Positions 1-19,090 of a stretch of 64,000 nucleotides of DNA are shown here, in pieces. Position numbers and translations under genes: made by a program. This stretch comes from Grifola frondosa (Eukaryota; Basidiomycota; Agaricomycetes; Polyporales; Grifolaceae): positions 124,001 through 188,000 of the forward strand of contig LUGG01000024.1 of NCBI GenBank assembly GCA_001683735.1, written 5' to 3'. Below the pieces are notes generated by a model. It did not search any database. It was not told where the DNA came from and worked only from the letters and a program-made list of their open reading frames with translations. Each line of letters opens with the position of its first letter. Position 1 is the first letter of the stretch.

Positions 1-3000
1 GTTTTCTATATCAAAAGGATGCGATCGCAGAGAAAGAGAAATGACGGACACGCTGACTGGGTATCATAGTCCAAAACTAAGCCAACTCTCCTTGATCGTA
101 ATCAAATCCTCGAGTTCGCTGTAAAATTTCGGTCATGGGTCTCGTGGTGTCGCAGTGGTTGCGATCGCCTTTTGAATCGCGGGGGTCCTCGTCGCAACGT
201 CGGGACTGTCACTGTCTGATAAGTATTCGGACAGCGTATCGTGATTGTTTGGTCTTCGTTCGCGAAGTTGCGAACGACACTCTCCGTTAAAACGTCGAAT
301 GGTCGCCCTAGTAAGATGTCATATGCAGCCTGTCGAATGACGTGAATCTGGAGGTAAAGGACGATATCGGAGACCTGGAAAGGGACGTTGCGAACAAGTC
401 CAAGAGACTGATCAACTTCGCCATTAGCTGACTGCATGTTAAGGCGTATGGTGGGGTCGTATATGAGTCCTAGCGCGTGACAGACTTCCTCCGACATTGA
501 GATGATTTGCGATCCTGGGTCTATAATCCCTTCGACGTCCTCCTTGTTGTCTACGAGACCATTGATGGATCGCAGGGCATGCGACTCTTTTGCGACCGTC
601 AACAACCTCGGTGTTTCGCCAGGTTTGAGGCCGCGCAAGTACGTCTCGTAGGGATCTGGTACGACCATGACACCTGGTCGAAGCGGTTGGCCATTAGAGA
701 CTAGTTGTGATGCAGGAGGAATATGCAATGAGGAATTTGCGATGTCTGGAAGCTCATCTGTATCGTCCTCTATTATATCTGCGTAGTTCGCGACTGGTTT
801 GTCAGTGGTTTGAACGCGACGAGGAGTTACTGCATCGCGATATTTCGCGCGGACTTCTGGAGAGATGGATAAAAGCTCCTCAGGTGTCAGCGTAAGTAGC
901 GGGGCTTTCATGGACCTATTGAAGACGTCCTCCGCTATTCTAGGATCTTGGACAGGCGCAGATGTTTTGTAAGCTGCATCTTTGTCCTTGGGAGGTTTGG
1001 GTAATACTCCCAGGTTGCGATCCTGAGGCGGAGCGTACGTCGCATCGCGAGCTTGCGAATATGGATGGATAGGTGCTGGAACCGTCGCAGGTGACGGTGT
1101 CGATGATGCCGCAGGAGCGGGTGCTGATACACTAGGAGGATTGGTAACCTGCGATGCCTCTGTGGGTTCGTGCGTAGGAGGGTTATCGACGCGATTGACT
1201 GCTGGCGGTATTGGAGGTCGCGCTGGAAGGTGCCTAGGAATTTCTACACCGTCAAAGGCCTCTTTGCCTTTTCTGAGTGCGAAGATTTCTCTTTCCAAGG
1301 CTGTGATGCGATCTTCTCTCGTGAGCTGGTATGATGATGCGACATTGGGATTAGAAGTGATCTCGAAAATCATTTGTCCTGCCGGCGGGTTCGTATTCGA
1401 ACTAAGTTGTCCTCGCGCGAGATTGTTTGGGTGTGTGCGATGCCATTCGAGGATGCGATCGCGCATGGTTGCACCAGTTACATTGCGAGGAACGAAGGCT
1501 CCCGAAGGTAGGACTACCTTGTTCTCGATGTTGCGGCGTATACGACCTATGTCAATATCTTCCTGAACTTTCGGACACCCTCCTATTACGTGCCCGAATT
1601 CTCCGCAGTAGTGACAACCTCCCGAAGTCGTGTTTGGATTCGCATTCGCAATATTGGAGACTCGCGACGTCTGTGGTTGCGCATTAGCAAAGGCCATGTT
1701 CGCTGACGTTGCGAAGGCTTGTGCGATGGTGCGAGTGACGGTTTCGATGAGGGAAGTGAAGTCTTCCGTCTTGATAGTACCTGGCGGTAATGCTGTGGAT
1801 GTGGTCGCAGCTGCGGGTGTACCCTGCGCTGGTGCATCGACTCGAGTACCATGTAGAACGTAGTGCACGGCATCTAAAATATGTCGCAACGGCCAGAAGT
1901 CGTCAGGATTGTGGTCAGGGTACTTGAGCTGGAGTCGCGAGTGTACAGACTGCCAAAGAGTTGGTGTGAAAGGCTTATAGAACGTCCTCGCGATTTACTT
2001 GTCGAAAGCCTCTGTCGACTACGAAGGAACTCTGTGATCTTGAAAAACTCCCTGTAATAGTCTCCCAGATCCGCTGCCGTAGAAATGCCCAATCGCGATC
2101 GTTCTCCTATAAGTAAATCAAGATCCTGCAACGTATATTTCCTGTTCGCATCGGCAGTAGGATAAAATGCTTTGACCTCCTCGCGCCATTCTTCGTACGT
2201 CTTTGTCGCATCCGCATACGAAGGTAATTGATCCCACATGTCTGCGACGTCGATGGGTGCATACCGTACAGCGTGCCTCTTCTTCAATTCGTTGGTTGGT
2301 GCGGTCGCAAGTGTGGTAAAGAGATATTCGAGATCTTCAAAGAATCGCAAAAGCGTTCGCGGTTCTTTTGGATCGAAAACTGGTGCGGTATGATGTCCGC
2401 GCGCGGGCATTGCTGTTGCCATGTTAGGAGCTGGTGGATTTACAAGAGGTGGCTGAGGAATAGGGGGCTGAGGCGGTATGTTCTGCGTTGTCGCAGGTGG
2501 AACTGGTCTAGGTGCTACTGGATGAGCGACGCTTGCTGGAATGGTCGCGCTACAGGAGTGTCTGGGTTTACAGAAGATGTTGATTGCGACCGACGCTGCT
2601 GTTGTCTCGCGTAATTGCGAGTGATAGGTCGCGGAAGACGCGAAGGTCCTGCCGTGGTTTGCGATTGAGATGGTTCCGGAATGATAGGCGATTCCTCTTC
2701 TAATTTCTCGTGCGGCTCTGTCGCGCGATCGAGAATAGAAGAATCTTCACCTAGTCTTAGGCCCGAACGAAGTGGAAGTGATGCACGAGTGTGTGTGGAA
2801 GCTGGAGTGGGAGATTCAGGCGATTGCGACCTGGCTGGAATATCGTCTGCTACTGGAGGTAGTTGTAATTCTGGTGGGGATGACTGCGACGTGATGGAAG
2901 ATGGAATTGATGTAAGTGGGCTAAGTTGTGATAGCGGTGTCTGGTAGACAGTTTCGTCCGCAATTGTGCCTAAACTCGAAGAGAGATTGATACAGAGATA

Positions 3001-4250
3001 TGAACGCGATCGCAAGTGTTTTCTCTGCTAGAACTCCAATAAGGACCTTGAGCGAAGGATACGAAAGAACCCCTCGCGGTGGGCTCCAGAAATGATACTC
3101 TCTTGCCGACTCTGACCTATAAAATAAAAAATATGTCTTCTATAGATCGTAAAGTCAGTAGCAACGAGATATAGCGCGAATGGGCTCCCGATTTCTCGCA
3201 GAGGTCCTTTGCACCGAGTTGTGTAACTAGCTATGCTCGCGAGTCGCACGTGAATCGTACTTCTCTGAGGTAGGGGAAATGCAGAAGAAGATACAAGTAA
3301 ATGCTTAGCAATATCGGCTCTTCGCGCACTCCACGCGTATCGCAACTAAAGAGTCTCCTTGATCGTAGGTTCGAAGTCGCAGCGTGTATGATGGTTTATC
3401 CGTATAGTCACAAGTATCGCGGTCGCAGTTTCGCAGTGAGAGGAGAGCTTTAGTGAAGAGCGGTCGTGATCGCAAGTGAAGCCGGCGATTTTGAACTCTG
3501 TACTTGTGGGGGAAACTCGTGTCTGATTCGTATCGTGCTATACATGAGTTTTTATGAATTATTCTCCGTATATGAAACGCAAAACGTCCTCGGTATAAAT
3601 CAAAAGCCGATCGCAAGTACCTTGCGACGAACATATCCTGTGAAATACGATAGCTAGTAAGGGAAAGGTCAATCGCTATAATGTCAAAAGTCTGGGATGA
3701 AACGCGATACGAGTAAGCTAAGATAAATCAAGAAAATGAAAATACCGAATGTATGGTGGCTGAACTGCTACACCTGCCACGTATAGCCATGCACTGCACC
3801 AGCGAGCGAAGCGCGCGAAGACACGCGTGAGTAAATGCGCGGTCTTCTCGGGGCGTTTATTGTAAAGGGGAACGTGTCGCACCGGTAGTACGGTCCGGAA
3901 TACACCGCAAACAATAGTGGCGATGTCGCATTGACGTGTGTAATCGCGTGGCGCAGCTAAATCAGCTATGGGAAGAATCTAAGGCTGGGTAGGAGTCGAG
4001 AGGACTGGGATCAGGGTTCGACGCGTGTGATCCGTCAGGTAGATGCATGTAGGACGCCGAACAATTGGGTCGCAAGTGTTTCGACCTATCGCACGTCTCC
4101 ATGTGGTGAATTTGAATGGTTAAATGACGTATCGCGTGAGTTTTGGGTGTACGAAGGGGTGGAGTCTTTGATAGTCTATGTTCGGCTGATCGCACGTCGC
4201 AACGAAGTCAGTTACTATTATGCAAGTGACCTGCGACGACGTAATCGCAA
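1..4250 (-). mobile_element. 5' part of a Ty3/gypsy-like LTR retroelement (gag region), cut by the window edge
   Basis: The gag/protease reading frames at 102-3015 run on the minus strand, so the 5' end of the element lies at higher coordinates and the pol part would lie left of base 1. Bases 3016-4250 hold no convincing gene and should contain the leader and 5' LTR, but I could not fix LTR borders, a primer-binding site or a target duplication. The block is unusually rich in TCGC/GCGA words. The right limit is set only by the start of the KDZ-lineage remnant at 4251, so it is approximate. Confidence 0.55.
102..3015 (-). pseudogene. Retrotransposon Gag with CCHC zinc knuckle and aspartyl protease, two frame breaks
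   Basis: Three minus-strand frames read as one Gag-protease polyprotein. The first (3015-2515) is a Ser/Pro-rich disordered leader. The second (2422-1874) is the capsid-like part, starting near FDPKEPRTLLRFFEDLEYLF. The third (1889-102) has the zinc knuckle CHYCGEFGHVIGGCP and, near its C-terminus, a retropepsin-like segment with DPGSQIISMS and ILLGRPFDVL. The DPGS replaces the usual D[ST]G, which is common in these fungal elements. The frame breaks lie near 2560 and near 2000; past the second, the other frame keeps reading good Gag sequence (KPFTPTLWQSVHSRLQLKYP). No reverse transcriptase is in the window. The element is either decaying or hit by the same indel errors seen in host genes here. 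Confidence 0.8.
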
Positions 4251-4255
4251 GTGCT
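3000..4255. repeat. Dispersed TCGCAAGT words upstream of gag
   Basis: The word TCGCAAGT, usually in ATCGCAAGTG form, occurs at about 3009, 3471, 3611, 4069 and 4245, all on the plus strand (antisense to gag). Related TCGCA/GCGATCGC words fill the gag region. The copies are not evenly spaced, so this is not a tandem array. It may be part of the leader or LTR. There is no gene in 3016-4250 that I can support. Confidence 0.4.
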
Positions 4256-5216
4256 ACTCGGTGTGCGACTTCTGCATGATCGTCAGATGCTTGAATGCGA
4301 AAATAGATTGATCCACGTAGCATGCGCCTTCGTATCACCGGAATATGAGACGATGGCCGCGGAGCTTCGTATGAGGGACTACAGGCTCGCTCTCGACAAC
4401 CTCGAGCGATTGGTTGTCCAGAGGATGTTCGAGCTCACGAAGCTCGGCATGAGTGGCCTAGGTAAGTTTAATTTTGTGTCCACTTCAGGCTTACCTATTC
4501 TTTATGCAGGGTATAAGCTCCGCGAGAAGATCGGCAAGGCTTTGAAGGCCACAGAAGCGATCAAGAATGCTCTCATCGAGTACAATCGCTGTGCAGCGGC
4601 CCTCTCGCCTCCTCGCCCTCAGATAGTGTGGGGCGACCTTATGGAAATGGCGTCGCTCGCGGAATTCGACATCTTACGCGACGCCCGTCATGATATTCGT
4701 ATGCTTCCCTGGGCGCAGCGCAAGAACCGTCTCGCCATGAATACGTACTTCAACGTGAAGCGGGCGCGGGAGGAGATACAGCGATTGAATGTCGAGATCT
4801 CTCGCTTGTTCACGGCGATGCTTGATGAACACGCTGACTTCCAGTGCGCCATTTCCGAATCGCGCGTCAACAATCCGGCCCTTTCTCATGAGCTCCTACG
4901 ACGTTGGCGATATCGCGATCGCCTCAACGGTAAGGTCGCTGAGTGGTTGTACAAGACGTCGCAACTTCCGGGGTTTACTGGGAATGTCCAGAACGGGCGC
5001 CGTGTCGGCCGCGGCGCTGCTCTCGCAGGCAACAGAATCCCTCTGCCGTCGTGGGCAGTCTCTCATGTTCGGGATGGTCGCAACGATGCCGAGGATGAAG
5101 CTGAAGATGCTCAGGTCATGATACAGGGCGTTGAGACAGAGGATGATGTGCAGCACCTCGTGGACTTCTTCGACGGCTTGGGCATTGAGGAGCCGCATTC
5201 TGAATCGTCGAACTGA
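4251..5216 (+). pseudogene. C-terminal remnant of a KDZ-lineage transposase or associated protein
   Basis: The frame stays open for 321 codons and has one clean 48-nt intron (4462-4509, GTAAGT...GCAG) that joins MSGLG to YKLREKIGKAL. The spliced text (VVQRMFELTKLGMSG, then SPPRPQIVW, FDILRDARHDI and RAREEIQRLNVEISRL) matches from memory the charged, coiled C-terminal tail of large transposase-type proteins expanded in Agaricomycetes. The catalytic part that should precede it is absent; the plus strand upstream is the leader region of the gag element, so the gene looks cut by that insertion or by deletion. The tail after about residue 240 is acidic. The link to KDZ rather than a related family is by recall only. 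Confidence 0.5.
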
Positions 5217-5761
5217 TAGCAATTGTATTCTGCCAGCAGTATGTAGTATGTTCATCTGATAGTTGTTGCAATATACTTGTCTTTGTGAATATCCAAACCT
5301 TGCGTGAATCTGTATTGACCAAATTCATAATGGACTCGAAAAATGGTAGTGTATTTCTGCTGGACAGTGCACAATTTCGTGACACTGGCAAGCACATGAA
5401 GAGGTACCCCCGGTGGATTGAGAGGCCAACGAGATAGCTACATTCAATACAAGTTCGGGCTTGTACTTTAACTGCGAGTGCACATACTTATAACACTAGC
5501 CAGCCTACATGCATAGCCACTCATGGCTTACTGCATTTATGCTTCGGTCAATCCAACGCTCGTTGAAGATGCATTTACTCATTTCCACTGAAGGTCTTCC
5601 TCAATGCACGCAACGTCTCAACACACGCAATGTCTCGATGCGCGCAACGTCTCAGCGCACATGTACAATGTCTCGATGCGGGCAATCATACGCAATATAT
5701 ATATATTCCATAGCTTCAAACAGAACGGACAAAATTGCTGCGAACAACATCACGAAGTACC
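5217..5761. other. Gene-free stretch with short degenerate tandem repeat
   Basis: No supported gene. At about 5600-5690 units of roughly 17-20 nt such as CGCAACGTCTCA and CGCAATGTCTCGATG repeat four to five times imperfectly, followed by a short TATATATATA run near 5696. Small open frames here only translate the repeat. Confidence 0.5.
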
Positions 5762-7339
5762 TCAAGAACCTGAAATGTACTTAGTGCAAGTAAAAGTGCG
5801 GGAAACATCAAAAGAGGTACATGATGAGGCCTGCTTCATTGACGATGAGCAGGACATGCTGTGAATCAAGAAGCGTAAGATGCGACCTCCGCAGTTGTTG
5901 CTTCCGGCGCGCGGTACGACGACGAGTACGACGGCTGCTAGCGTCATTCTCATCGTTGCGCTCGGTGCCCGCGCCATCACCATCGCCGTCGTCTGCGCCA
6001 TCGTCCGCGTTCCTCTTCCGTTTCGTGGCCGCCCGTTCTTTCCTGCATCCTTCCTTTTCTTCCGTGTGACCACTATTCCAGCACTAACGTCCTCGTCAAA
6101 CTTCTTCTTGCGCTCGGCATATTCAACCGCCGAAAGTTCAAACGAAACGACATGCGCCAGACTCAAGTGCCTCGAGGAGTTTCTCCAGTTGAGGGAGGCT
6201 GTTGCTGAGGTCGGACAGATTGCAGAACTTATCTGCTGTCCATCCGACCAGGTCGATGCGGTGCTGCATGACAATATCGCGCTCGAAGCTGGTATATTTC
6301 ATCACGGCGTGCTCATTGTTCGTGATATCAACTGCATGCAATGTCAGTACAATGAAAGTGAACCTATTCACTGCCTTACATACCCAGCATGACGTTTATC
6401 TTGTCCCGGATCTCCGCCTTCATATGTTCAGCCTTGCTCTTGGAAGTACGCATGAAAGCTAGAAGAATCTGAGCAGGTGTGAATAGATATGGAGATTAAC
6501 TTACCAGCCCAGTCACATCCTGCCACCGAAAAGGCCTCCGCTAACGCACATATCTTCTTGGGGTCGAAACCCTTCCGCACAGCACCGCGAAGGTATTTTT
6601 CGAGTTCGGGATTGGAGCAGAACCATCTCGGTTCCATCTGGTAGTCGGGCATGTTACGAACAACGCCATAGAAAAATTCAATGCCGACGCGATTGCCCAG
6701 GGCTGTTAACTACAAAATTGATTAGTAGGACATAATCAACCTAACGGCGACGCAAACGTACCATGTCTTCGACTTGTTCACAGACCTTTTTAACATCCTG
6801 CTTGCGGCGGCGCTGTGTCAGACGAACGCTGGCGCCGCACAAATCTCTCTCTTCCTCGAGTTCCTTCACATATGCAAGCTTCTCCACCTCAGAGAGTTTA
6901 TGATAGTCGTCTAGCGAGTCTTGCTGAATGTCGGCAAGCAACGTCGCCGACCGTATGCGGCATCTAGATCGCATTCAGCTTTCGCCTTGTTCAAGACAAA
7001 ATGAATACATACTTTCATTGACTTCCTTCGCCTTATGATGGACCCATGCATTGAATGCATTCGGCTTCCGCGAGGCCTGGAGTTTTGAACCGTTGGAGAA
7101 CATGAGACGAAGGTAATATTCAGGTTGCCTGCCGAATTTCTTCGATAGCTCTGTCGACAGATCCTTCGACATCTGGTACCTGCTTCGAGTTTGAGTTCGA
7201 GTTCCTTCTTTTTCACCTTCTTGTCGGACTCGATTGCGGCGCGCTTTTCCGGTGGAATGACCTGTGGTGGCTTCCGCCTAACAGAAGAGGCTGGCCGCGC
7301 GACTCCCGTGGTCGCCGGGAGATAACTCGAGGTGGACAT
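5762..7339 (-). pseudogene. Transposon-associated Agaricomycete protein with HMG-box-like N-terminus, frame-broken
   Basis: Exons read downwards from 7339. They encode a basic Lys/Glu-rich start, then LSKKFGRQPEYYLRLMF, then NAFNAWVHHKAKEVNE and DDYHKLSEVEKLAYVKELEE (HMG-box-like spacing). Next comes MPDYQMEPRWFCSNPELEKY, then YTSFERDIVMQHRIDLVGW and LLEALESGACRFV, then a Lys-rich tail. I recognise this order from a family of unnamed proteins that accompany DNA transposons in Agaricomycetes; its function is unknown. Introns with GTAAGT/GTATGT donors separate most blocks. At least two junctions cannot be spliced cleanly: near 7180 the frame shifts before MSKDLSTEL, and near 6150 one extra base separates CRFV from ELSAVEYAE. 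It is either degenerate or affected by sequence errors. Confidence 0.5.
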
Positions 7340-7540
7340 GCACTACCAGCCGTTGAAAGAAGACCGTCGATGGGTGGCACAGAATATTCCATGTCGAGCC
7401 CTATATATGTTGTCCTAATAGCACAAACAATTTCAATTCTTCTGAAGAATGTGTAAGACCTCTGATGAGTAAAAGCACATACAACTGTAATTGGACGCGG
7501 CAACATGTAGCAACGAATATATCAAACACCGATCATAGCA

Positions 7541-8971
7541 TCATGTAAGTAACTGCTGGCAATCTGCCAACATAGCGTCCGCTAGCTCCCGTGCAATTTC
7601 AGGCGAGACCTGCATGCGCAGCTCGATCTCGTCATCCCACGCACATGCGGCCGATGTTCGCATGACTTCCCACAAGCACTCATGTACAGCAAGGGGAAGT
7701 TGACAACGACGCCGGATGCGCTCGGTAGCCTTCCCAAAGCCGTCAGTCACAACATGCTTGTTCTTGAGCTGGGATTGAGGCACGGGGGGTCATACCCACT
7801 TGACATCAATGCGGGAATGGACGACACAGACGAGATAGAGGACAAGGAAGGTGAAGACGGAGGCGTGTGTGCACCAGAACCTTTTCCCGACATTGCCATA
7901 GTGATGGATGGGACAGCGGTAGCAATAGATGAGGGAGGTCCAGCCTTCCTGCTCAGCCGCAGACTGATGATCCGACGAGGAGAATGTGCTGCCATTGCAG
8001 CTGCTACGTAACCATTAGCAACGCGGGGCTCGAAATGGGAAAAGTACTCACATGAATGCAACTGCCGCACCTCTTCCTCCAGTTGCTTCACAGCTAGGTC
8101 CTTCTGCTCGATGACGTTTTCCAGCTCCTTGATGCGGCTTCGCGTGTGATCGATATCCGCCTCATGGATCACCTCTTCTAACTCGCGAACACGTCTCCTC
8201 AACATCTCGAGCTGATTCAGGTTTCTCACATCACCCAGAGGCTGTTCCGCTTCCAACCCACCCTCCGCCTCTAGAATCGCCTGGAACTCCTCAGGGGGAT
8301 GACCATGGAAGTGATAGCGAGCGCAATTCGGTCGGACGGGCGCCGGAACAAGTGGATGAGCGACAATCGGGAGGACAGCGGTAGTGCAGAAATCATACGA
8401 GTAACCGGCACTCTTGAAGGCGCGCTCCCATCGTGGAATGATGCGGAGCGCAATCTCCTCAGCAAATATCTGATTCATCCGCGCTAGGGCGGGACCCATG
8501 TCGGGCATTTCCTCCAGAAGACCGGGGTTGAAGTAGACTTGAGTCTTGACATGCGACGGCACTGGCTGCGCGCCAGGCGCTTGAGCGCCGCTGAACGTGA
8601 TGACGAGGGTAGCACCCCCCGTAACACGATCGTAGGCAGTCACCTGCGAGAAAATAATAAGTGTGATGCACGTAAAGAAATTGAATACATACCAGATCAA
8701 AAATGGTGTCCAATAAACCGTTGTAGAACGCAGTGCGCGCATCCCGACCTTCCTTGCCCGTAGGAAGGTTTGCGCGAGCGACTTTAAAAAGATCGTGGAA
8801 CTGCTTCGCATTCAGGCTGTGGTGCCCATCCTTGTGGAATCCACAAGATAGGAATGCATAGGCGGCAGCATGGAGTTGGCGTTGGTAGACGTCGGAGATG
8901 CCGCCTTGACCAAGCTGACTGCGAACAGATTCGATGCCAGCGGGATTGAACTGGCAGCGAGAAAGAGCCAT
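7541..8971 (-). CDS. Transposon-associated Agaricomycete protein with coiled coil, function unknown
   Basis: The likely start is the ATG at 8971 (MALSRCQFNPAGIESVRSQL). An intron at 8692-8644 (GTATGT...CGCAG) joins LLDTIFDL to VTAYDRVTGGATLV. The protein continues through VYFNPGLLEEMPDMGPALAR and AGYSYDFCTTAVLPIV to PNCARYHFHG. A coiled coil follows (about 8240-8080, heptad-like LEMLRRRVRELEEVI), then a Ser-rich linker. The C-terminal exon, 7783-7541, ends in VSPEIARELADAMLADC. This set of motifs is familiar from multi-copy unnamed Agaricomycete families found with DNA transposons. No catalytic motif is visible. A further 5' exon at about 9887-9748, ending at a GTAAGT donor, is possible; the minisatellite would then lie in its intron. 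The splicing between the linker and the last exon is unclear. Confidence 0.5.
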
Positions 8972-8999: not shown

Positions 9000-9722
9000 G
9001 AGGGGGCGCAGACGGCAAAGGATGTGAGCACACGTCGTCAACGGCGTCGAGAAAAGTGCAATGAGAAACGAGAAAAACGGCAGAGAAGGTAAGGAAGGGG
9101 AGAGGCGCAGACGGTGACAGCTGTGGGCGCAGACGTCCAGGAAGAGGAGGAGGAGGGGAAACAACGATGAGGGTAAGGGGGAGGGGAGGCGCAGACGAAA
9201 TCAGCTGTAGGCGTGGGCGTCCAGGAACGGGAGCAGGAGGGAGGAAGAACGACGGGGAAGGCAATGGAGGGGAAAGGCGCAGACAGGAATCGCTGTGAGC
9301 GCACGTCGTCAACGACGTCGAGGAAGGGAAGGGTGAAAAACGAGAAGAACGACGGAGAAAGTAAGAGAGGAGAGAGGCGCAGACGTAAACAGCTGTGGGC
9401 GTGGCGTAGAGGACAGGAGGGGAAGAACACGAAGGACGACGAGGAAGAAGGTGAATGGACAGCTGTGGGTGTCGGCGTCGGCGTCGGCGTCAGCGTCGAG
9501 GAAACGAGAGTGGAGAACGCGAGAGACGACGGGTAAGGAGGTGGGCGCCGACGGACAGCTGTGGGCGTAGATGTTGAGGAAAGGAGGGTGGAGGACGTGG
9601 AGGACGACGGGCAAGGGAATGGTATAAGGCAAGGGGGCAGATGAACAGCTGTGGGCGTGGGCGTCGAGGAAAGGAGGCTGGAGAACGTGAAGGACGATGG
9701 GCAAGGGGATGATATAAGAGGG
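9000..9722. repeat. Minisatellite of about eight degenerate 85-100 bp units
   Basis: Units begin at about 9000, 9101, 9184, 9268, 9369, 9456, 9541 and 9631. Most share the core GAGGCGCAGACG, then CAGCTGTGGGCG, then GACGTCGAGGAAAGGAGG, then GAGAACGNGAAGGACGACGG. One strand is strongly purine-rich. Unit 6 also has a GGCGTC triplet-pair run (about 9472-9500). The open frames here are repeat translations (Pro/Ser/Arg-rich) and not genes. Confidence 0.85.
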
Positions 9723-10550
9723 AGGATCGTGTTGGAAAGTTGAACTTACCATGTGGATTCCATGGGAACAGATGCTGGAAAAGGCACCATTCCCATTGGT
9801 CAATCCGAATTGTTGGGTGATCGCAGCATGCGGGTCCGATCTCCGGAGCGTTATGGGTCCGTGTGCGTGAGATGATCCAGTTGTCATGCGATGGGTCGGG
9901 CATTACACGTGACTGGACCTACAAGCTCGCCCCCGGATCCCTCTCTAAGAAAGAGGCCCACCCATTTGAGAGCGCGGCACGCTGCAGGCGGGCAGTCGTA
10001 CTGCGTTGAGGCCGCCAGTTGTTTTTCCGCTCTCATCCGGGAGGCGCTGGGCAGAAATATTACATTTTCGACGGATTTGGCGTTGAGCGCTTGATGCAGA
10101 TTCGACGTGGGCGGCCGTCCAGGAATGGTAAGTAAGAAAGAAATAGAGTAAGTAAGTAAGTAAGTATGAGATCTATCTAGCGCACGATCTGGATTATCAG
10201 TAATTTAGCGAGAGGACGAAAATGGAAGCGCGGGTAGTAAGGGGAGCGCTGAAAGGAGGAGGGAAGCGCCGGCGGGAAAAGGACGCGCGTCGGTAGGGGA
10301 CGGTGGGCGGGAGGGCGCTTGGATGCACGTGCTGGGAAAGGTCTGGACGGGGTCGGTAGCCGTCGGGCGGTGGAGGCGGATAATGCGGTTGATGCCGAGC
10401 CTAGCGACGCATCGGCATCAGAGTTGCAGTCTCCACGGCTCTCCCTGATTCTCGCCCCATTTCTTGACAGGCAAGGGAAAGGCTGTAGACGGCTCTACCT
10501 AGAGGGGTCACGTGGGTGACTCGTGCCCTCTAATTAGACGGTAACTGCGG
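9723..10550. other. Gene-free flank left of the palindromic transposon
   Basis: On the minus strand a GTAAGT donor sits at about 9747-9742 after a short open stretch from 9887, a candidate first exon for the gene at 7541-8971. A (GTAA)n/(GTAAGAAA)n microsatellite lies at about 10129-10167. The rest is GC-rich with CT-tracts on the minus strand, and I see no supported gene. Confidence 0.45.
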
Positions 10551-10559
10551 GACGATTAG
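10551..10559. repeat. Left 9-bp target-site duplication
   Basis: GACGATTAG lies directly against the first base of the left arm (CAGGCTCC...). The same nine bases follow the last base of the right arm at 19020-19028. Confidence 0.9.
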
Positions 10560-13500
10560 CAGGCTCCTAAAACCAGCCGTCGCTAGCACGTTCACGTTGC
10601 TACATATGTTTTGCGAAAATTATGTAATATGTTTAATAAAAGAATTCTTTAAAAGGAAAATTACCGGATTAAGAAATTCGAACAAGAGCAAGTGAACGCG
10701 CTAGGACGGCTGGCCAGAAGTTTCGACCGAGCTCCCCGAGCGCTGAAGACAAATAACAACAATCCTCCAATTTATTGCCATTGGGCTTTGCGCCACAACA
10801 GTTTCTACAGGCGACTGTTCAAGCACGATTCGGGGTCCTCTCCTCGCTTCGTCGTGTGAATTGCACCTCGCTGCAGCAACATGTAGGTAGACATGCATCA
10901 TGTACTTGGGAATTGGGATGAGCACGCCGAGTAGCAACTTCACAATGTCCCTTACAACTAGTGATCTCGAAGCATTTCTTGCCGTGGTGGAACAATATGG
11001 CACAACAATTTCCGAATTAATCCTTTCACTTCTACGAAACGAGAATCTCACTCAGCATGTCGCAGTCCGTGACCTCTTGCATAACGTTGACGAGTTGCTT
11101 GGCGCGCTACACCAGCATCCACAACTAGGAGGACAAATGTCACAGTGGGCACGTCACCATACGGAGCAGACATGTGCGAAAGAGATTGTTGCACTTACAA
11201 GGAAAGAGAATGGTTTGCAGTTTAACGTCTCGAATGCAAAACATGATCAGCTCGAGAAGTTTGATATTTCCGATGTAGCAGACAAGATGAGAGGCGTTGC
11301 GCCAGTCCTTTGGGCTATGCTAGAGATCCTTTTGTCAGCCGATTCTAGCTTGGTTCAACTTCGTCACAGTATACGAGAAAAACGGCGCCGAGAAAATCAG
11401 GATACAGAGGATATAGAGATGGGTTCACCGAGACAACAAGGAACAGATGGGTGTAGCGAGGATGAGTACTGGAATATGGATGATGAAAACGGAGAGTGCT
11501 GGGAGGATTTGGAACCCGGAGAAGAAGACAATACAGAGAAAGAGGAGACAAAAGTTAAGGTACTCACAATGGTATGTCCTAATGAACCGAGCCAAAACGT
11601 TCCGAATCTGAAGGCATGTTCTATAGAAAAAGGTTGTCTGCATGAGCATCATGATGCAAAGCACAAATCAAACATGTAACGCACTGCAGAGCATGGTTGG
11701 CATATTCTTACACTCATGCAATGCACCGGAGGCTGTGGTGGAATTTCTTTCTCGCACTGGTGTATCAATTTCACGCACAAGTATTGATGACGCTATCACC
11801 AATCTCTCGAAGGAGGCCAGCGAGGAGATCAAACAGCTCGGACAAACCCTTCTTGCTTCCTATGCCTACGATAACTTCGATGTCGAGATCAAGGAGTCAA
11901 TACCAACTGTTGAAAAACCTCACGACAACTTACTTCATCTCATCTCCGGCACGATTTTCCCGCTTGACCATGGCGTAACCCGTGAGGACTTGGCATGCGC
12001 TGCAGAACTTTGGGAAAAGTCTCCTGACAATCCTCGAAACCATAAAATGCCACGAGGAGTGAATTGGAAGAAGCTTGTAGCCTTGCACCCCGAGACGTTG
12101 ACGAATCCCTCCGATTTGACCCGCCGACAACGATTTAACGCATGGAAATTCGTCGATGACCTCGTCTCGCATGGTCCCGAATACTTTCACCAATTCAAGG
12201 GAGATCTGGGTATGCCCGAAGTTATTGATGCAATACCAATTACGAAGTCAAAACAAGTGCCCGTGGAGGGCATGGACATCAATCAGTCAACAGTGCAAGG
12301 GAATGCAGACGCTTTGACGAACCTTTTCAAACAAGGTGGGATAGGTGACCCGAATGAGCAGCCAGGAGTCGTCGATGTTGGAGATCACGTCATCATTGTC
12401 CATGGTGACCTATCCACATGCGAACGAGTTCAGAGTGTGCAGATGTCACGGGCAGAGGAACGCACCCCATGGCGACGTTTTCAAAACGTGAAGTTCGGAA
12501 ATGGTCTGTTCCATTTGAAGATGGCGTGCGCAGACGCTATCTGGAAGGTCTTCATTTACCCGAAAAACTCGAGGGAGGATGATACGAGTCTAATGAGGAT
12601 GATCGCAGAAATACGGCCGAAGGAAACTATCAAAATTGGAAGCAAGCCTGGCTTCCGCCGTATGCACAAAGTCATACAGCATGTCGGGATTGTATCTCGG
12701 CTTGATTGTTGGAGGGAAGAGGTTAGCAAACAGAGCCAGACCCGCTACAAAAACCTCAATGAATGGGCCGCTTCGAAACCGACATTCGAAGAAATCCAAC
12801 ACCTTGCTCGGATCATAGTCCGAACATACCTTCCTGACGAAAAGTCCCCAGCTCCACAATTTCGTCCGGATGCACAGCGAGATGAGAAGTGGGAGAACAC
12901 GCAGCTTAGAGATAAGTATTTTCTTCTATACGAGGAGCTCACGCATGCAATGAACGCTGGCGATATCGGACACGTCGAGACATGTTTCATGCCTTGGGTC
13001 TTCATCTTCAAGGGATGCGGAAAACATAAATATGCAACGCAAATGATGAAGTTTCTACATGATCTGCATTTCGTTTATCCACCTGGCTTACGGTGAGTCA
13101 GCTACTTGCCAAAAGATGCAAACACTGACGTACAGTTATTTCGAAGACGTGCAATTCGGATGAACATATTGGTGAATCCGACTGGCAGGAAGAATCATTT
13201 TCGGGCAATTGACTGGGTTGTTGAGCATAACAACCTCTACACGAAGGTCAGTGTCTTTCACTTTGCTAAATATCTTGGCTAAATACAAATCCCGAGGATA
13301 TATGGTGGCCGCTTTTCCAATCGCACAAAAGCGCGCATTCTGAAGGAATCAGTGCTAATCCAAGTCTACAAGAACGTGCGGATCAGCTTTGAGAAAATGT
13401 TCGCTCTAAATCACCGAACATTCAAGCATTCAATCCCGAAGATGCGACAAACATTTAATAAGCTTGGAGTCTACATGATGAAAACGAAGACTCACGAGTT

Positions 13501-13898
13501 TGTCGCTGGCCGCAAGGCTCACTACAGAATTCCAGATGTGATGAAGGAGGGTATGCATAGGATTATTGCGACGAAAGGGCAAGGGATCGAGTCCAGCGGG
13601 AACGAAGAAGTCGACGAAACTCTAGATATCGAAGTGGACGGCGCAGATGGCGACCTCGATGTCTGATTGGCGGCTTAGGAGAGGTTGGTGGGAGTGTTGG
13701 AAGATGTGCTGGCATTGCTGTCGTGGATAGGCTGTAGTCGCATACGCGAGACGTGAAACGCAGGTTCTACATCGACGAACGTCAGAATCGGACTGAGACG
13801 AGAGCAGAAGACGCACCCAGCGCAGCTACGCGTGAAGTAGATGGACCTGCTATTGGTCCATGTGGTGCAATGTTCTCGTTGTTTACATTGATCGCTTG
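10560..13898 (+). repeat. Left arm of the long inverted repeat (3,339 bp)
   Basis: The outer border is at CAGGCTCC (10560) and the inner border is after ATCGCTTG (13898), where pairing with the right arm stops. Besides the transposase gene it carries an AT-rich terminal region (10610-10680) and a 232-bp non-coding tail after the transposase stop. The tail contains a 7-bp perfect hairpin, ATGGACC/GGTCCAT, at 13841-13861. Confidence 0.92.
10900..13666 (+). CDS. DUF6589-type DDE transposase, left-arm copy
   Basis: A gene with four apparent exons. An N-terminal helical, acidic-tailed region (10900-11571) is followed by an intron 11572-11626 (GTATGT...CTATAG). The next exon opens with KKVVCMSIMMQST and TCNALQSMVGIF, then LASYAYDNFDVEI and FPLDHGVTREDL. 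The presumed catalytic core has IVHGDLSTCERVQS (first acidic residue), RTPWRRFQNVKFGNGLFHLK, MACADAIWKVF and AGDIGHVETCFMPWVF. A 54-nt intron leads to RMNILVNPTGRKNHFRAID and EHNNLYTK. A last intron leads to RIYGGRFSNRTKARILKES and the basic end, with the stop at 13666. The NPTG...HF motif is the best mark of the family. No stop or frame break was found, so it looks functional. The upstream Met at 10900 is the first in frame. Confidence 0.82.
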
Positions 13899-13964
13899 AC
13901 GGTTGCGGCACTTTGAGCTGCGAGCTGGAAGTAGTTTGGCACCTTAGTATGACTTAATTACAAG

Positions 13965-15680
13965 TTAAGCGAAGGACGTACTTGTATGCCCCGTCATCCC
14001 ACAGCTGCTACACGTCGGTGGTCGCCTCTTTCGTGGTAGAGCAACTTCGGCTGTGGTCGACAGCTGTGCGCCCGCCATGTCAGCAGCACCGAGAACACGA
14101 GCAACATCGTCAACTACTGCTGGGGTAGCTAGAAGCGCTGCTTGGCTAGCAATTAGCTCGAGGAGTGATGCGCCGTACGAGTCGGTCCATTCCCCGTCCC
14201 AATCGAGCTCCCTTCGCAGACTCTCAAGATTGGAGAGCTTGCCCGCATGTGCGCAATCAATAACGCGCTGGATGGTAGAGACTGACATGAAGATATCGCT
14301 CCCATAGTCAATGAGGGTGGCTTGATCAAATTCCTGCAAAGCCTTTATGTCGCGCCAATCTAGAAGTGCCCTACGCAAGTCGCGGTCGGGCGTCGCAAGA
14401 TCATATGGTTTGATGTGAGATTTCTTCATGACACGGGTGGTCTGTGAAGCAGCAGGTGCAGCAAGATGTTCAAAAAGATGTGGAGTGCACATATCACAAG
14501 AGAGTAGAGGTCTTCGGCGCACATCGACAACAACCATGAAGGTTGCTAGTGTCGCACTCTCGGTAATCCCAAGCTGGACAAGGCGTGAGAATGAGTCACC
14601 AATTCAACAGTCAACGCACCTCGCTTATCATTTGAATACGCCAACATTATTGGAACTCGTCGACACCTGAACCCACGGGTCTTTGCGTTAACGAAGTCAT
14701 CGACAGCTGGCTGAAGTACGCGCGCTTCCTTCGCTGATACCATACTTCCACCATCCCGTTCACACTTGCTGTAGATGCCTCGGCGGTTCTCATTGAATGC
14801 GTCACCCTCAGTCGACGAATCCCGACCAGACATGGCTTCAGGAAGCACTTGTGTGGATTGCATGGTCGCGGTGAGTCCGGATTGCCATTCATCGCCGTCT
14901 ACTTCAGATGCGGAACCATGCTCGGTGTCGCTATCTTCGGGATCAATTTTGGCACGAGCGGTCGTTTGAGAAGGGAGAGGACGTGAACTCGAAGAAGGAT
15001 CTGCGGCGTACGCTGGACGTTTGCTTGTAGAGTCTCTCGTAATCTGACGATGAGCCTTTCTCTTCTTCACAGCCTCCCTTCGTTTTGCATTTCGTATTGC
15101 CTTTTTGTCTCGCTCATCATCAAAGTGCTGCTTCTCCGCAATGAGCAGAGCTGTACCCTCAATGCCATCCCCTCTAGCAGCCCGTCCAAATCGTTGCCAC
15201 AAGGTATTCATATTTGCTGGTACCTTCCATTGAATGATTAACTTGACATCAGGTAGATCAAGCCCCTAGCGGCATAGTACCTATCAGCGCATTGACCTTC
15301 ATATGGTAGAATATAGCTCGTACCATTCCGAATGAGTCAGTGACACATAGTCCATACAGATCACTTGTCCGTAGTGCCTCGTACTCATCACTCCGATACT
15401 CCGGGGTCATGATGGAATGAAAGTACTTGATTTTCTCGCGGAGATGCTCAGGTAGGCGATTCCTAAGATGTCTGACAGCTGCCTCAGTCTCCTTGATGCT
15501 GTCGAAAAATATGAGGAATTTCTGCGGGGGGTATCACCGTCCTTGAATCCATCCGGGATGAGGAAATCTAGGTCACCGAATGAGTTCGCGGCATGTTCCA
15601 TCTTACGAACAGCAAGATGAATATCAGGGCGGTCATTGGAGCGGAGAAAATATTCCGTGTGGCCTGCACGGAGGTGTAGA
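13965..15680 (-). pseudogene. RecQ-like helicase, C-terminal half only, truncated by the right arm
   Basis: Reading down from the arm border, the sequence starts abruptly at AGHTEYFLRSNDRPDIHLAV. It then shows motif-IV-like FLIFFDS (near 15515), TPEYRSDEYEALR, motif V CVTDSFGM|GLDLPDV across an intron, and motif VI WQRFGRAARG near 15190. A charged linker follows, then a second domain with RPLLSCDMCTPHLFEHL and a terminal CCHC-like knuckle CSSCGMTGHT ending at 13965. The N-terminal ATPase lobe (Walker A, DEAH box) is missing, because the sequence to the right of 15680 is the inverted copy of the left arm. Frames switch at three or four GT-AG introns. It should be inactive as a helicase. Confidence 0.8.
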
Positions 15681-18600
15681 CAAGCGATCAATGTAAACAA
15701 CGAGAACATTGCACCACATGGACCAATAGCAGGTCCATCTACTTCACGCGTAGCTGCGCTGGGTGCGTCTTCTGCTCTCGTCTCAGTCCGATTCTGACGT
15801 TCGTCGATGTAGAACCTGCGTTTCACGTCTCGCGTATGCGACTACAGCCTATCCACGACAGCAATGCCAGCACATCTTCCAACACTCCCACCAACCTCTC
15901 CTAAGCCGCCAATCAGACATCGAGGTCGCCATCTGCGCCGTCCACTTCGATATCTAGAGTTTCGTCGACTTCTTCGTTCCCGCTGGACTCGATCCCTTGC
16001 CCTTTCGTCGCAATAATCCTATGCATACCCTCCTTCATCACATCTGGAATTCTGTAGTGAGCCTTGCGGCCAGCGACAAACTCGTGAGTCTTCGTTTTCA
16101 TCATGTAGACTCCAAGCTTATTAAATGTTTGTCGCATCTTCGGGATTGAATGCTTGAATGTTCGGTGATTTAGAGCGAACATTTTCTCAAAGCTGATCCG
16201 CACGTTCTTGTAGACTTGGATTAGCACTGATTCCTTCAGAATGCGCGCTTTTGTGCGATTGGAAAAGCGGCCACCATATATCCTCGGGATTTGTATTTAG
16301 CCAAGATATTTAGCAAAGTGAAAGACACTGACCTTCGTGTAGAGGTTGTTATGCTCAACAACCCAGTCAATTGCCCGAAAATGATTCTTCCTGCCAGTCG
16401 GATTCACCAATATGTTCATCCGAATTGCACGTCTTCGAAATAACTGTACGTCAGTGTTTGCATCTTTTGGCAAGTAGCTGACTCACCGTAAGCCAGGTGG
16501 ATAAACGAAATGCAGATCATGTAGAAACTTCATCATTTGCGTTGCATATTTATGTTTTCCGCATCCCTTGAAGATGAAGACCCAAGGCATGAAACATGTC
16601 TCGACGTGTCCGATATCGCCAGCGTTCATTGCATGCGTGAGCTCCTCGTATAGAAGAAAATACTTATCTCTAAGCTGCGTGTTCTCCCACTTCTCATCTC
16701 GCTGTGCATCCGGACGAAATTGTGGAGCTGGGGACTTTTCGTCAGGAAGGTATGTTCGGACTATGATCCGAGCAAGGTGTTGGATTTCTTCGAATGTCGG
16801 TTTCGAAGCGGCCCATTCATTGAGGTTTTTGTAGCGGGTCTGGCTCTGTTTGCTAACCTCTTCCCTCCAACAATCAAGCCGAGATACAATCCCGACATGC
16901 TGTATGACTTTGTGCATACGGCGGAAGCCAGGCTTGCTTCCAATTTTGATAGTTTCCTTCGGCCGTATTTCTGCGATCATCCTCATTAGACTCGTATCAT
17001 CCTCCCTCGAGTTTTTCGGGTAAATGAAGACCTTCCAGATAGCGTCTGCGCACGCCATCTTCAAATGGAACAGACCATTTCCGAACTTCACGTTTTGAAA
17101 ACGTCGCCATGGGGTGCGTTCCTCTGCCCGTGACATCTGCACACTCTGAACTCGTTCGCATGTGGATAGGTCACCATGGACAATGATGACGTGATCTCCA
17201 ACATCGACGACTCCTGGCTGCTCATTCGGGTCACCTATCCCACCTTGTTTGAAAAGGTTCGTCAAAGCGTCTGCATTCCCTTGCACTGTTGACTGATTGA
17301 TGTCCATGCCCTCCACGGGCACTTGTTTTGACTTCGTAATTGGTATTGCATCAATAACTTCGGGCATACCCAGATCTCCCTTGAATTGGTGAAAGTATTC
17401 GGGACCATGCGAGACGAGGTCATCGACGAATTTCCATGCGTTAAATCGTTGTCGGCGGGTCAAATCGGAGGGATTCGTCAACGTCTCGGGGTGCAAGGCT
17501 ACAAGCTTCTTCCAATTCACTCCTCGTGGCATTTTATGGTTTCGAGGATTGTCAGGAGACTTTTCCCAAAGTTCTGCAGCGCATGCCAAGTCCTCACGGG
17601 TTACGCCATGGTCAAGCGGGAAAATCGTGCCGGAGATGAGATGAAGTAAGTTGTCGTGAGGTTTTTCAACAGTTGGTATTGACTCCTTGATCTCGACATC
17701 GAAGTTATCGTAGGCATAGGAAGCAAGAAGGGTTTGTCCGAGCTGTTTGATCTCCTCGCTGGCCTCCTTCGAGAGATTGGTGATAGCGTCATCAATACTT
17801 GTGCGTGAAATTGATACACCAGTGCGAGAAAGAAATTCCACCACAGCCTCCGGTGCATTGCATGAGTGTAAGAATATGCCAACCATGCTCTGCAGTGCGT
17901 TACATGTTTGATTTGTGCTTTGCATCATGATGCTCATGCAGACAACCTTTTTCTATAGAACATGCCTTCAGATTCGGAACGTTTTGGCTCGGTTCATTAG
18001 GACATACCATTGTGAGTACCTTAACTTTTGTCTCCTCTTTCTCTGTATTGTCTTCTTCTCCGGGTTCCAAATCCTCCCAGCACTCTCCGTTTTCATCATC
18101 CATATTCCAGTACTCATCCTCGCTACACCCATCTGTTCCTTGTTGTCTCGGTGAACCCATCTCTATATCCTCTGTATCCTGATTTTCTCGGCGCCGTTTT
18201 TCTCGTATACTGTGACGAAGTTGAACCAAGCTAGAATCGGCTGACAAAAGGATCTCTAGCATAGCCCAAAGGACTGGCGCAACGCCTCTCATCTTGTCTG
18301 CTACATCGGAAATATCAAACTTCTCGAGCTGATCATGTTTTGCATTCGAGACGTTAAACTGCAAACCATTCTCTTTCCTTGTAAGTGCAACAATCTCTTT
18401 CGCACATGTCTGCTCCGTATGGTGACGTGCCCACTGTGACATTTGTCCTCCTAGTTGTGGATGCTGGTGTAGCGCGCCAAGCAACTCGTCAACGTTATGC
18501 AAGAGGTCACGGACTGCGACATGCTGAGTGAGATTCTCGTTTCGTAGAAGTGAAAGGATTAATTCGGAAATTGTTGTGCCATATTGTTCCACCACGGCAA

Positions 18601-19019
18601 GAAATGCTTCGAGATCACTAGTTGTAAGGGACATTGTGAAGTTGCTACTCGGCGTGCTCATCCCAATTCCCAAGTACATGATGCATGTCTACCTACATGT
18701 TGCTGCAGCGAGGTGCAATTCACACGACGAAGCGAGGAGAGGACCCCGAATCGTGCTTGAACAGTCGCCTGTAGAAACTGTTGTGGCGCAAAGCCCAATG
18801 GCAATAAATTGGAGGATTGTTGTTATTTGTCTTCAGCGCTCGGGGAGCTCGGTCGAAACTTCTGGCCAGCCGTCCTAGCGCGTTCACTTGCTCTTGTTCG
18901 AATTTCTTAATCCGGTAATTTTCCTTTTAAAGAATTCTTTTATTAAACATATTACATAATTTTCGCAAAACATATGTAGCAACGTGAACGTGCTAGCGAC
19001 GGCTGGTTTTAGGAGCCTG
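15681..19019 (-). repeat. Right arm of the long inverted repeat (3,339 bp)
   Basis: This is the reverse complement of 10560-13898. The inner border starts at CAAGCGAT (15681) and the outer border ends at GGAGCCTG (19019). No mismatch to the left arm was seen in the stretches compared by eye (both ends, the transposase introns and the coding frames). An exact alignment would settle whether identity is complete. Confidence 0.92.
15913..18679 (-). CDS. DUF6589-type DDE transposase, right-arm copy
   Basis: Mirror image of the left-arm gene at 10900-13666, read inwards on the minus strand, with the same exons and the same translated frames. The exons map to 18679-18008, 17952-16485 and the two shorter 3' exons ending at 15913. 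It also looks intact. With the promoter region inside the arm, both copies could be expressed. Two convergent identical genes facing a 2-kb loop would also allow double-stranded RNA if transcription reads through; that is inference. Confidence 0.82.
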
Positions 19020-19028
19020 GACGATTAG
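19020..19028. repeat. Right 9-bp target-site duplication
   Basis: GACGATTAG follows the last base of the right arm (…GGAGCCTG) and matches 10551-10559. A 10-bp reading is possible only if the terminal C of the left arm is left unpaired, so 9 bp is the simpler reading. Confidence 0.9.
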
Positions 19029-19090
19029 GTGGTCCTCGCGAGAAGTAAGCGTTTCTTCGTCTGCAGTGTATGAACGTGGGTGCATGAGAC

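Follow-up and report, generated by a model that had tools for sequence, protein, structure and literature searches.

Here we describe a palindromic element in a 64,000-nucleotide stretch of the Grifola frondosa genome (GenBank assembly GCA_001683735.1, contig LUGG01000024.1, positions 124,001 to 188,000, or C21:124001-188000 in our contig naming; hereafter the window). We give a probability of about 80% to the reading that this palindrome derives by rearrangement from a two-gene DNA transposon, of which the right end would have been replaced by an inverted copy of the end that carries a DUF6589 gene. In the assembled copy, neither the original right end nor the N-terminal side of a RecQ-like helicase gene is present, and an exact inverted duplicate of the leftmost 3,339 bp replaces them. 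The assembly comprises 39.06 Mb in 64 contigs, the contig that carries the palindrome (C21) is 600 kb long, and the window is free of any N. The components of the element are listed below by window position and strand, with related loci of the assembly given as L numbers.

10551..10559, + strand: left copy of the 9-bp target-site duplication GACGATTAG, single in five of five unoccupied related ends (L045-L049)
10560..10841, + strand: presumed original left terminal inverted repeat (TIR), at least 282 bp, from comparison with the right end of L037 and the ends of L035/L036
10560..13898, + strand: left arm, 3,339 bp, identical to the right arm
10936..13666, + strand: left copy of the DUF6589 gene (presumed transposase) with introns, start codon presumed, placed by Pfam PF20231 and homolog alignment
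13899..15680: unique loop, 1,782 bp, apparently the continuation of the ancestral element beyond the left arm, to which it is collinear by translated matches that lie in order in L032 and L033
13965..15680, - strand: RecQ-like helicase gene, C-terminal part only, truncated on its N-terminal side by the right arm, from translated matches to L031, L032 and L033
15680..15681: rearrangement junction between helicase codons and inverted arm, with a possible 4-bp shared ATCG (13891-13894), in register with relic L043
15681..19019, - strand: right arm, inverted copy of the left arm with 0 mismatches
15913..18643, - strand: right copy of the DUF6589 gene, mirror of the left gene
18738..19019, - strand: right TIR, identical to the left TIR
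19020..19028, + strand: right copy of the 9-bp target-site duplication

An earlier note on this DNA had reported two identical inverted arms of 3,339 bp, a 1,782-bp loop, a 9-bp direct repeat abutting both outer ends and a complete transposase gene in each arm, and each of these observations was borne out. Aligned with the reverse complement of 15681-19019, positions 10560-13898 are identical at 3,339 of 3,339 bases; the match breaks off with the very first base beyond the arms, both on the outside (10559/19020) and on the loop side (13899/15680). A chance origin of this identity is excluded by length alone. The palindromic element itself occupies 10560-19019 (8,460 bp), in agreement with the 8.46-kb unit of the note; the range given there for that unit, 10551-19028, also counts both 9-bp repeats. 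In genome-wide searches, for which repeat counts are lower bounds, the complete arm was found twice, both times in the palindrome (2 of 17 matches, the other 15 being end fragments or diverged pieces), and the complete loop once (1 of 2 matches, the second covering 175 bp at 89%). These arm and loop searches returned no second copy of the palindrome in the assembly.

The layout of the normal members of the family is best read as a TIR, a DUF6589 gene, a convergent RecQ-like helicase gene and a second TIR. In L032 (contig C2; 5,656 bp, 150-bp TIRs at 97% identity, 9-bp duplication ACCTCAGTC), a DUF6589 gene without stops runs inward from one end and a RecQ-like helicase gene runs inward from the other, and the element continues past the helicase N-terminus (open reading frame (ORF) to 8455) to the TIR at 8566-8715. 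L031 (contig C9; 6,558 bp, 9-bp duplication GGTTGACCA) likewise holds both genes, with two stops in DUF6589. L035 and L036 represent one 1.06-kb deletion derivative with the 9-bp duplication CTTGGATAG; they were counted once because both lie inside 9.5-kb stretches that are 99.4% identical (C31:9000-18500 and C2:3266500-3276400). C31 is only 41.7 kb long, and the two stretches may stem from a recent duplication or from a second haplotype retained in the assembly. The family termini start CAGNCTCCT with small variations. Both ends were tried for five distinct elements, and a 9-bp duplication flanks four of them (the palindrome, L031, L032 and L035/L036). No duplication was found for L038 with a guessed right end, nor at an inner inverted repeat of L031, which was not taken as element ends; the outer pair has one. 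L034 (contig C26), with three DUF6589 pieces, 8 stops in total and no duplication at the inverted repeats tried, was not used. By the grouping made here, the palindrome shares the CAGNCTCCT-type termini and the 9-bp duplication of these DUF6589-RecQ elements; beside its right TIR it holds only the C-terminal part of the convergent RecQ-like gene. The inverted ends of the other family members measure 126-283 bp. No family of palindromes was seen in the assembly; the palindrome is one rearranged copy of a two-gene family.

The loop ties the palindrome to this family. Translated pieces of arm and loop match L032 at 3990-7850 in one order and orientation, DUF6589 then helicase, and the same holds for L033. 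The loop as a captured host gene was rejected: related helicase sequence adjoins DUF6589 in L031, L032 and L033. Two separate DUF6589 elements, inserted in opposite orientation with host DNA between them, would also give two identical, inverted DUF6589 genes. But the inner arm ends have no TIR (a TIR query finds the two outer ends only in the window), the loop corresponds to the helicase portion of such an element and is collinear with the left arm, and a single shared 9-bp duplication brackets the whole; we therefore reject two independent insertions as extremely improbable. As for the helicase itself, its L032 version gives Pfam DEAD and Helicase_C matches and is similar in sequence to RecQ, WRN and BLM chains, with E values down to 2e-14. 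Three of seven helicase pieces (L031 818-1306, L033 and L043) have no Pfam match, and the identification draws on L032, on a single piece of L031 and on homology.

A decayed right end of the palindrome's subfamily survives as a relic at C2:3173497-3179566 (L037/L043). Its L037 part contains a TIR matching the first 282 bp of the arm (window 10560-10841 against 3498-3641 and 4190-4330, 91%), followed by the helicase ATP-binding region at 4451-4621, found by tblastn with the N-terminal helicase piece of L032 (E 1.8e-10). The first 187 bp of the palindrome TIR also match both ends of L035/L036. Between the L037 and arm TIRs there are 26 differences, of which 21 are C>T or G>A, a kind of decay typical of methylated repeats or of repeats mutated in the manner of RIP (repeat-induced point mutation). 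Because the differences are mostly of this kind, the left and right TIRs were probably close to identical, over at least ~282 bp, when the family was young, and a template switch between near-identical TIRs can therefore explain the palindrome. An insertion of ~550 bp with 81-bp inverted ends (86%) splits the relic TIR (L037 3641-4190) and appears to be a separate small transposon, with a TA duplication judged by eye. More widely, C>T and G>A account for most of the differences between the arm and the relic ends L037, L038, L041 and L042, which suggests methylation decay or mutation directed at repeats; no such bias is seen in L039, L040 or one end of L035/L036.

From these observations a course of events can be proposed. 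A TIR-ended element landed within an older transposon, 3 bp from its right end, and duplicated GACGATTAG; this much is shown by the sequence. A double-strand break, perhaps left by excision, would have been repaired by copying, during which the right side could have taken the left TIR as template, the two TIRs being nearly the same. Copying would have run inward past the whole DUF6589 gene before the new end was joined to the broken helicase gene. The product keeps both ends but has no complete helicase gene any longer. The ATCG at the junction hints at a short microhomology.

Several points weigh against this rearrangement scenario. The junction microhomology depends on one diverged relic, and the cause of the break is conjectural. 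No complete, unrearranged element of the palindrome's close subfamily was found in the assembly, so that the ancestor is reconstructed from relatives 36-57% identical in protein and from the decayed right end. In that right end the middle of the helicase lies ~4.5 kb further on (L037 9113-9475), the gap presumably being another insertion. Finally, 0 mismatches in 3,339 bp, with arms identical to the last base, would also fit a misassembled inside, in which an inverted chimeric read was built into a normal element through its near-identical TIRs. Amplified DNA is known to give inverted chimeras with a kilobase loop. The flanks, considered next, are right, and a 600-kb contig in a 64-contig assembly suggests long reads; we regard such an artefact as improbable.

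The flanks belong to the older transposon, whose parts next to the palindrome are the following.

9275..10559, + strand: part of the right terminal repeat of the invaded ~21.9-kb element, continuing at 19029-19031 (GTG)
19032-19039: the older element's own 8-bp duplication GTCCTCGC, also present outside its left end (L045)

This element extends over C21:112626-143031, which less the palindrome and one 9-bp repeat gives ~21.9 kb, an extent presumed from its paired ends, the sequence having been read up to C21:115416 and again from the start of the window. Its right terminal repeat is ~1.28 kb long and the left repeat is 99.07% identical to it. Two further members of the older family on contig C6 supply four more ends (L046-L049). 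All five related unoccupied ends, from three elements, read GACGATTAG-GTG without interruption; the palindrome therefore lies 3 bp inside the right end of the older element, and its 9-bp repeat arose by target-site duplication and not by chance, since the unoccupied ends have a single copy. Because the nested duplications of the two elements agree on both sides, the correct flanks are joined across the palindrome. The nested duplications support the flanks only, and not the inside of the palindrome.

The earlier note had gone further and taken the duplication to show that the palindrome itself inserted here, seemingly as one unit. Its description of a TIR-ended DNA transposon derivative with whole-gene arms stands, but not the use of the duplication as proof of palindrome insertion: an element that inserted in normal form and then had its right half replaced in place keeps both its ends and its duplication, so that the duplication is uninformative on movement. 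An origin of the palindrome elsewhere, followed by transposition to this site as one 8.46-kb unit, is a sub-case of our explanation. It is compatible with the perfect TIR ends, the two transposase genes that look intact and the perfect 9-bp duplication, and a single copy does not contradict it, as cut-and-paste movement leaves no donor copy. On the other side, the sequence does not require unit movement, in-place conversion expects the same duplication, and with no second palindrome copy in the assembly there is no positive evidence for such movement and one extra event would be needed. We hold movement as a unit to be possible but the less probable course, and we lean, with modest confidence, to repair in place at the present site, because one copy and no donor were found and one event fewer is involved.

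The arm gene was defined by homology. The stretch 11642-13093 matches PF20231 with E 3e-83 and 280.2 bits (cut-off 27), and six DUF6589 proteins (742-847 aa) align in order with exon blocks from ~10936 to the stop at 13664-13666, which supports a complete gene in each arm. Exon borders and start are taken from the protein alignment; an in-frame ATG also occurs at 10900, upstream of the presumed start at 10936, and the stops inside the aligned stretch fall within putative introns. A GDLDV-type C-terminus is common to the arm gene and two of the six aligned homologs (P0020 and P0056). Among the matches listed, the best named homologs come from Amylocystis, Lenzites, Trametes, Ganoderma and others, at 60-65% identity, which together with the assembly size and the introns fits a mushroom-forming fungus. 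Of six ORFs submitted to Pfam, one gave DUF6589 and the other five, including the three loop ORFs, gave nothing; among 24736 Pfam models (E 0.01), none besides PF20231 matched the arm gene, and no MULE transposase domain was found.

Structure prediction hints at a function. DUF6589 models, with moderate scores, as a putative RNase-H-fold transposase; matches ranked 36 and lower to proteins other than transposases and integrases (for example, Utp23 and condensin) were treated as background. Three residues that are invariant in the alignment (D343, D523 and E697 of P0002) fall at plausible positions of the model and are candidates for a catalytic acidic triad. A profile from alignment A1 (36 long, named homologs of the 120 listed, of 825 found) hit only seven GabR chains among PDB sequences (E 0.23-0.35), which we judged to be chance, and detected no sequence match to P element or hAT (Hermes) transposases. 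An IMG/VR scan with the DUF6589 alignment for elements in other genomes gave 19 pattern matches, of which 0 were confirmed. DUF6589 is very probably the transposase of an agaricomycete group of elements that pairs it with a RecQ-like helicase, and the palindrome, with both ends and two apparently intact transposase genes, may still be mobile.

Some further observations concern the older element and its surroundings. The termini of its family read CACCTAATCGTC...GACGATTAGGTG, with terminal repeats that match over ~0.9-1.3 kb and duplications of 7-8 bp (GTCCTCGC, ATCCACA and TACGGCC). The C6 copies (C6:1041045-1050695 and C6:1274522-1284178) are ~9.65 kb long, compared with ~21.9 kb for the C21 copy. 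Among seven ORFs submitted to Pfam from window 1-8811, the sole matches were to gag-type aspartyl proteases (105-1994), which may belong to a nested retroelement. Within the older terminal repeat, 9005-9745 is an internally repeated stretch with 66-80% identity to relatives in several registers, and GC and AT skew are strong at 9001-10000.

Among known transposons, Mutator-like elements (MuDR/MULE) have long TIRs and 8-10 bp duplications, and MuDR has two convergent genes (PMC3440606, PMC5225508). The palindrome resembles them in its 9-bp duplication and its TIR of at least 282 bp. Its transposase, in contrast, matches Pfam DUF6589 only and the partner gene is a RecQ-like helicase, and on the transposase domain we reject membership. 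The P element duplication is 8 bp. hAT elements usually make an 8-bp duplication (PMC12730594), whereas that of DUF6589-RecQ elements is 9 bp. KolobokH, described as a fungal Kolobok lineage of DNA transposons with a RecQ helicase (PMC9587614), is similar in carrying such a helicase, but the duplications of DUF6589-RecQ elements are 9 bp long and vary in sequence, and their helicase gene is separate and convergent; with none of these duplications being the 4-bp TTAA, assignment to Kolobok or KolobokH was rejected. In the open-licence PMC literature we found no paper with the word DUF6589, one unrelated match for PF20231 and no description of DUF6589-RecQ elements; the passages found there on RecQ and transposons concerned KolobokH and telomeric RecQ genes. 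Repbase lay outside this search, and a named group for these elements may exist there.

The type of rearrangement is already known. In the '2RT' copies of Galileo (PMC3573991), TIRs were lengthened, as in the palindrome, by inverted recruitment of internal sequence. The authors of that study propose recombination promoted by inverted repeats that lie near each other, as might follow breaks left by excision. The longest Galileo TIRs reach ~1.26 kb at 95.2% identity and, in the same text, the copies that have them never hold a transposase ORF, whereas the palindrome TIR is 3.34 kb, perfect and holds a whole presumed transposase gene (PMC3573991). Mu killer (Muk), a derivative of maize MuDR, is likewise an inverted duplication of one end of a two-gene convergent TIR element, internally deleted and with both TIRs from the transposase-gene end (PMC3440606), as found here. 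Its duplication runs ~1.3 kb into mudrA with partial genes, as opposed to 3.34-kb arms with a whole gene; the palindrome loop, unlike Muk, keeps part of the second gene, and its transposase is not MULE by Pfam (PMC3440606).

Silencing by Muk has been shown in maize, where one mirror-image copy silences its whole transposon family, with, in the text available, short antisense transcripts rather than a long hairpin as the correlate (PMC3440606). By analogy, the palindrome could be a fungal counterpart that silences an undescribed DUF6589-RecQ superfamily through RNA interference (RNAi), a reading that we put forward as speculative and rather unlikely. Read-through across the 1.8-kb loop would give 3.3-kb double-stranded transposase RNA, which would feed host RNAi. 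It would fit that no other complete member of the close subfamily was found and that several relics show C>T decay. At exon level the Piwi domain is matched 17 times in the genome, 16 of these above the cut-off, and the Dicer-dimer domain three times, always above it, so that the machinery is probably present; the open DUF6589 gene of L032 means that at least one relative has escaped decay. Should hairpin RNA be produced, this would be another case of a transposon silenced by a self-inverted copy.

Independently of silencing, the palindrome offers a fully assembled example of a transposon that duplicated its transposase-gene end in place of the other end, in a genome that also preserves relatives resembling the ancestor, a remnant of the lost end and sites without the insertion, and it suggests a function for DUF6589, a family called unknown. 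The central part of Mu killer resisted sequencing in the study cited above (PMC3440606). Mu killer is the nearest known case and the extended TIRs of Galileo the next, and within this known type the palindrome is longer, perfect and contains an entire gene.

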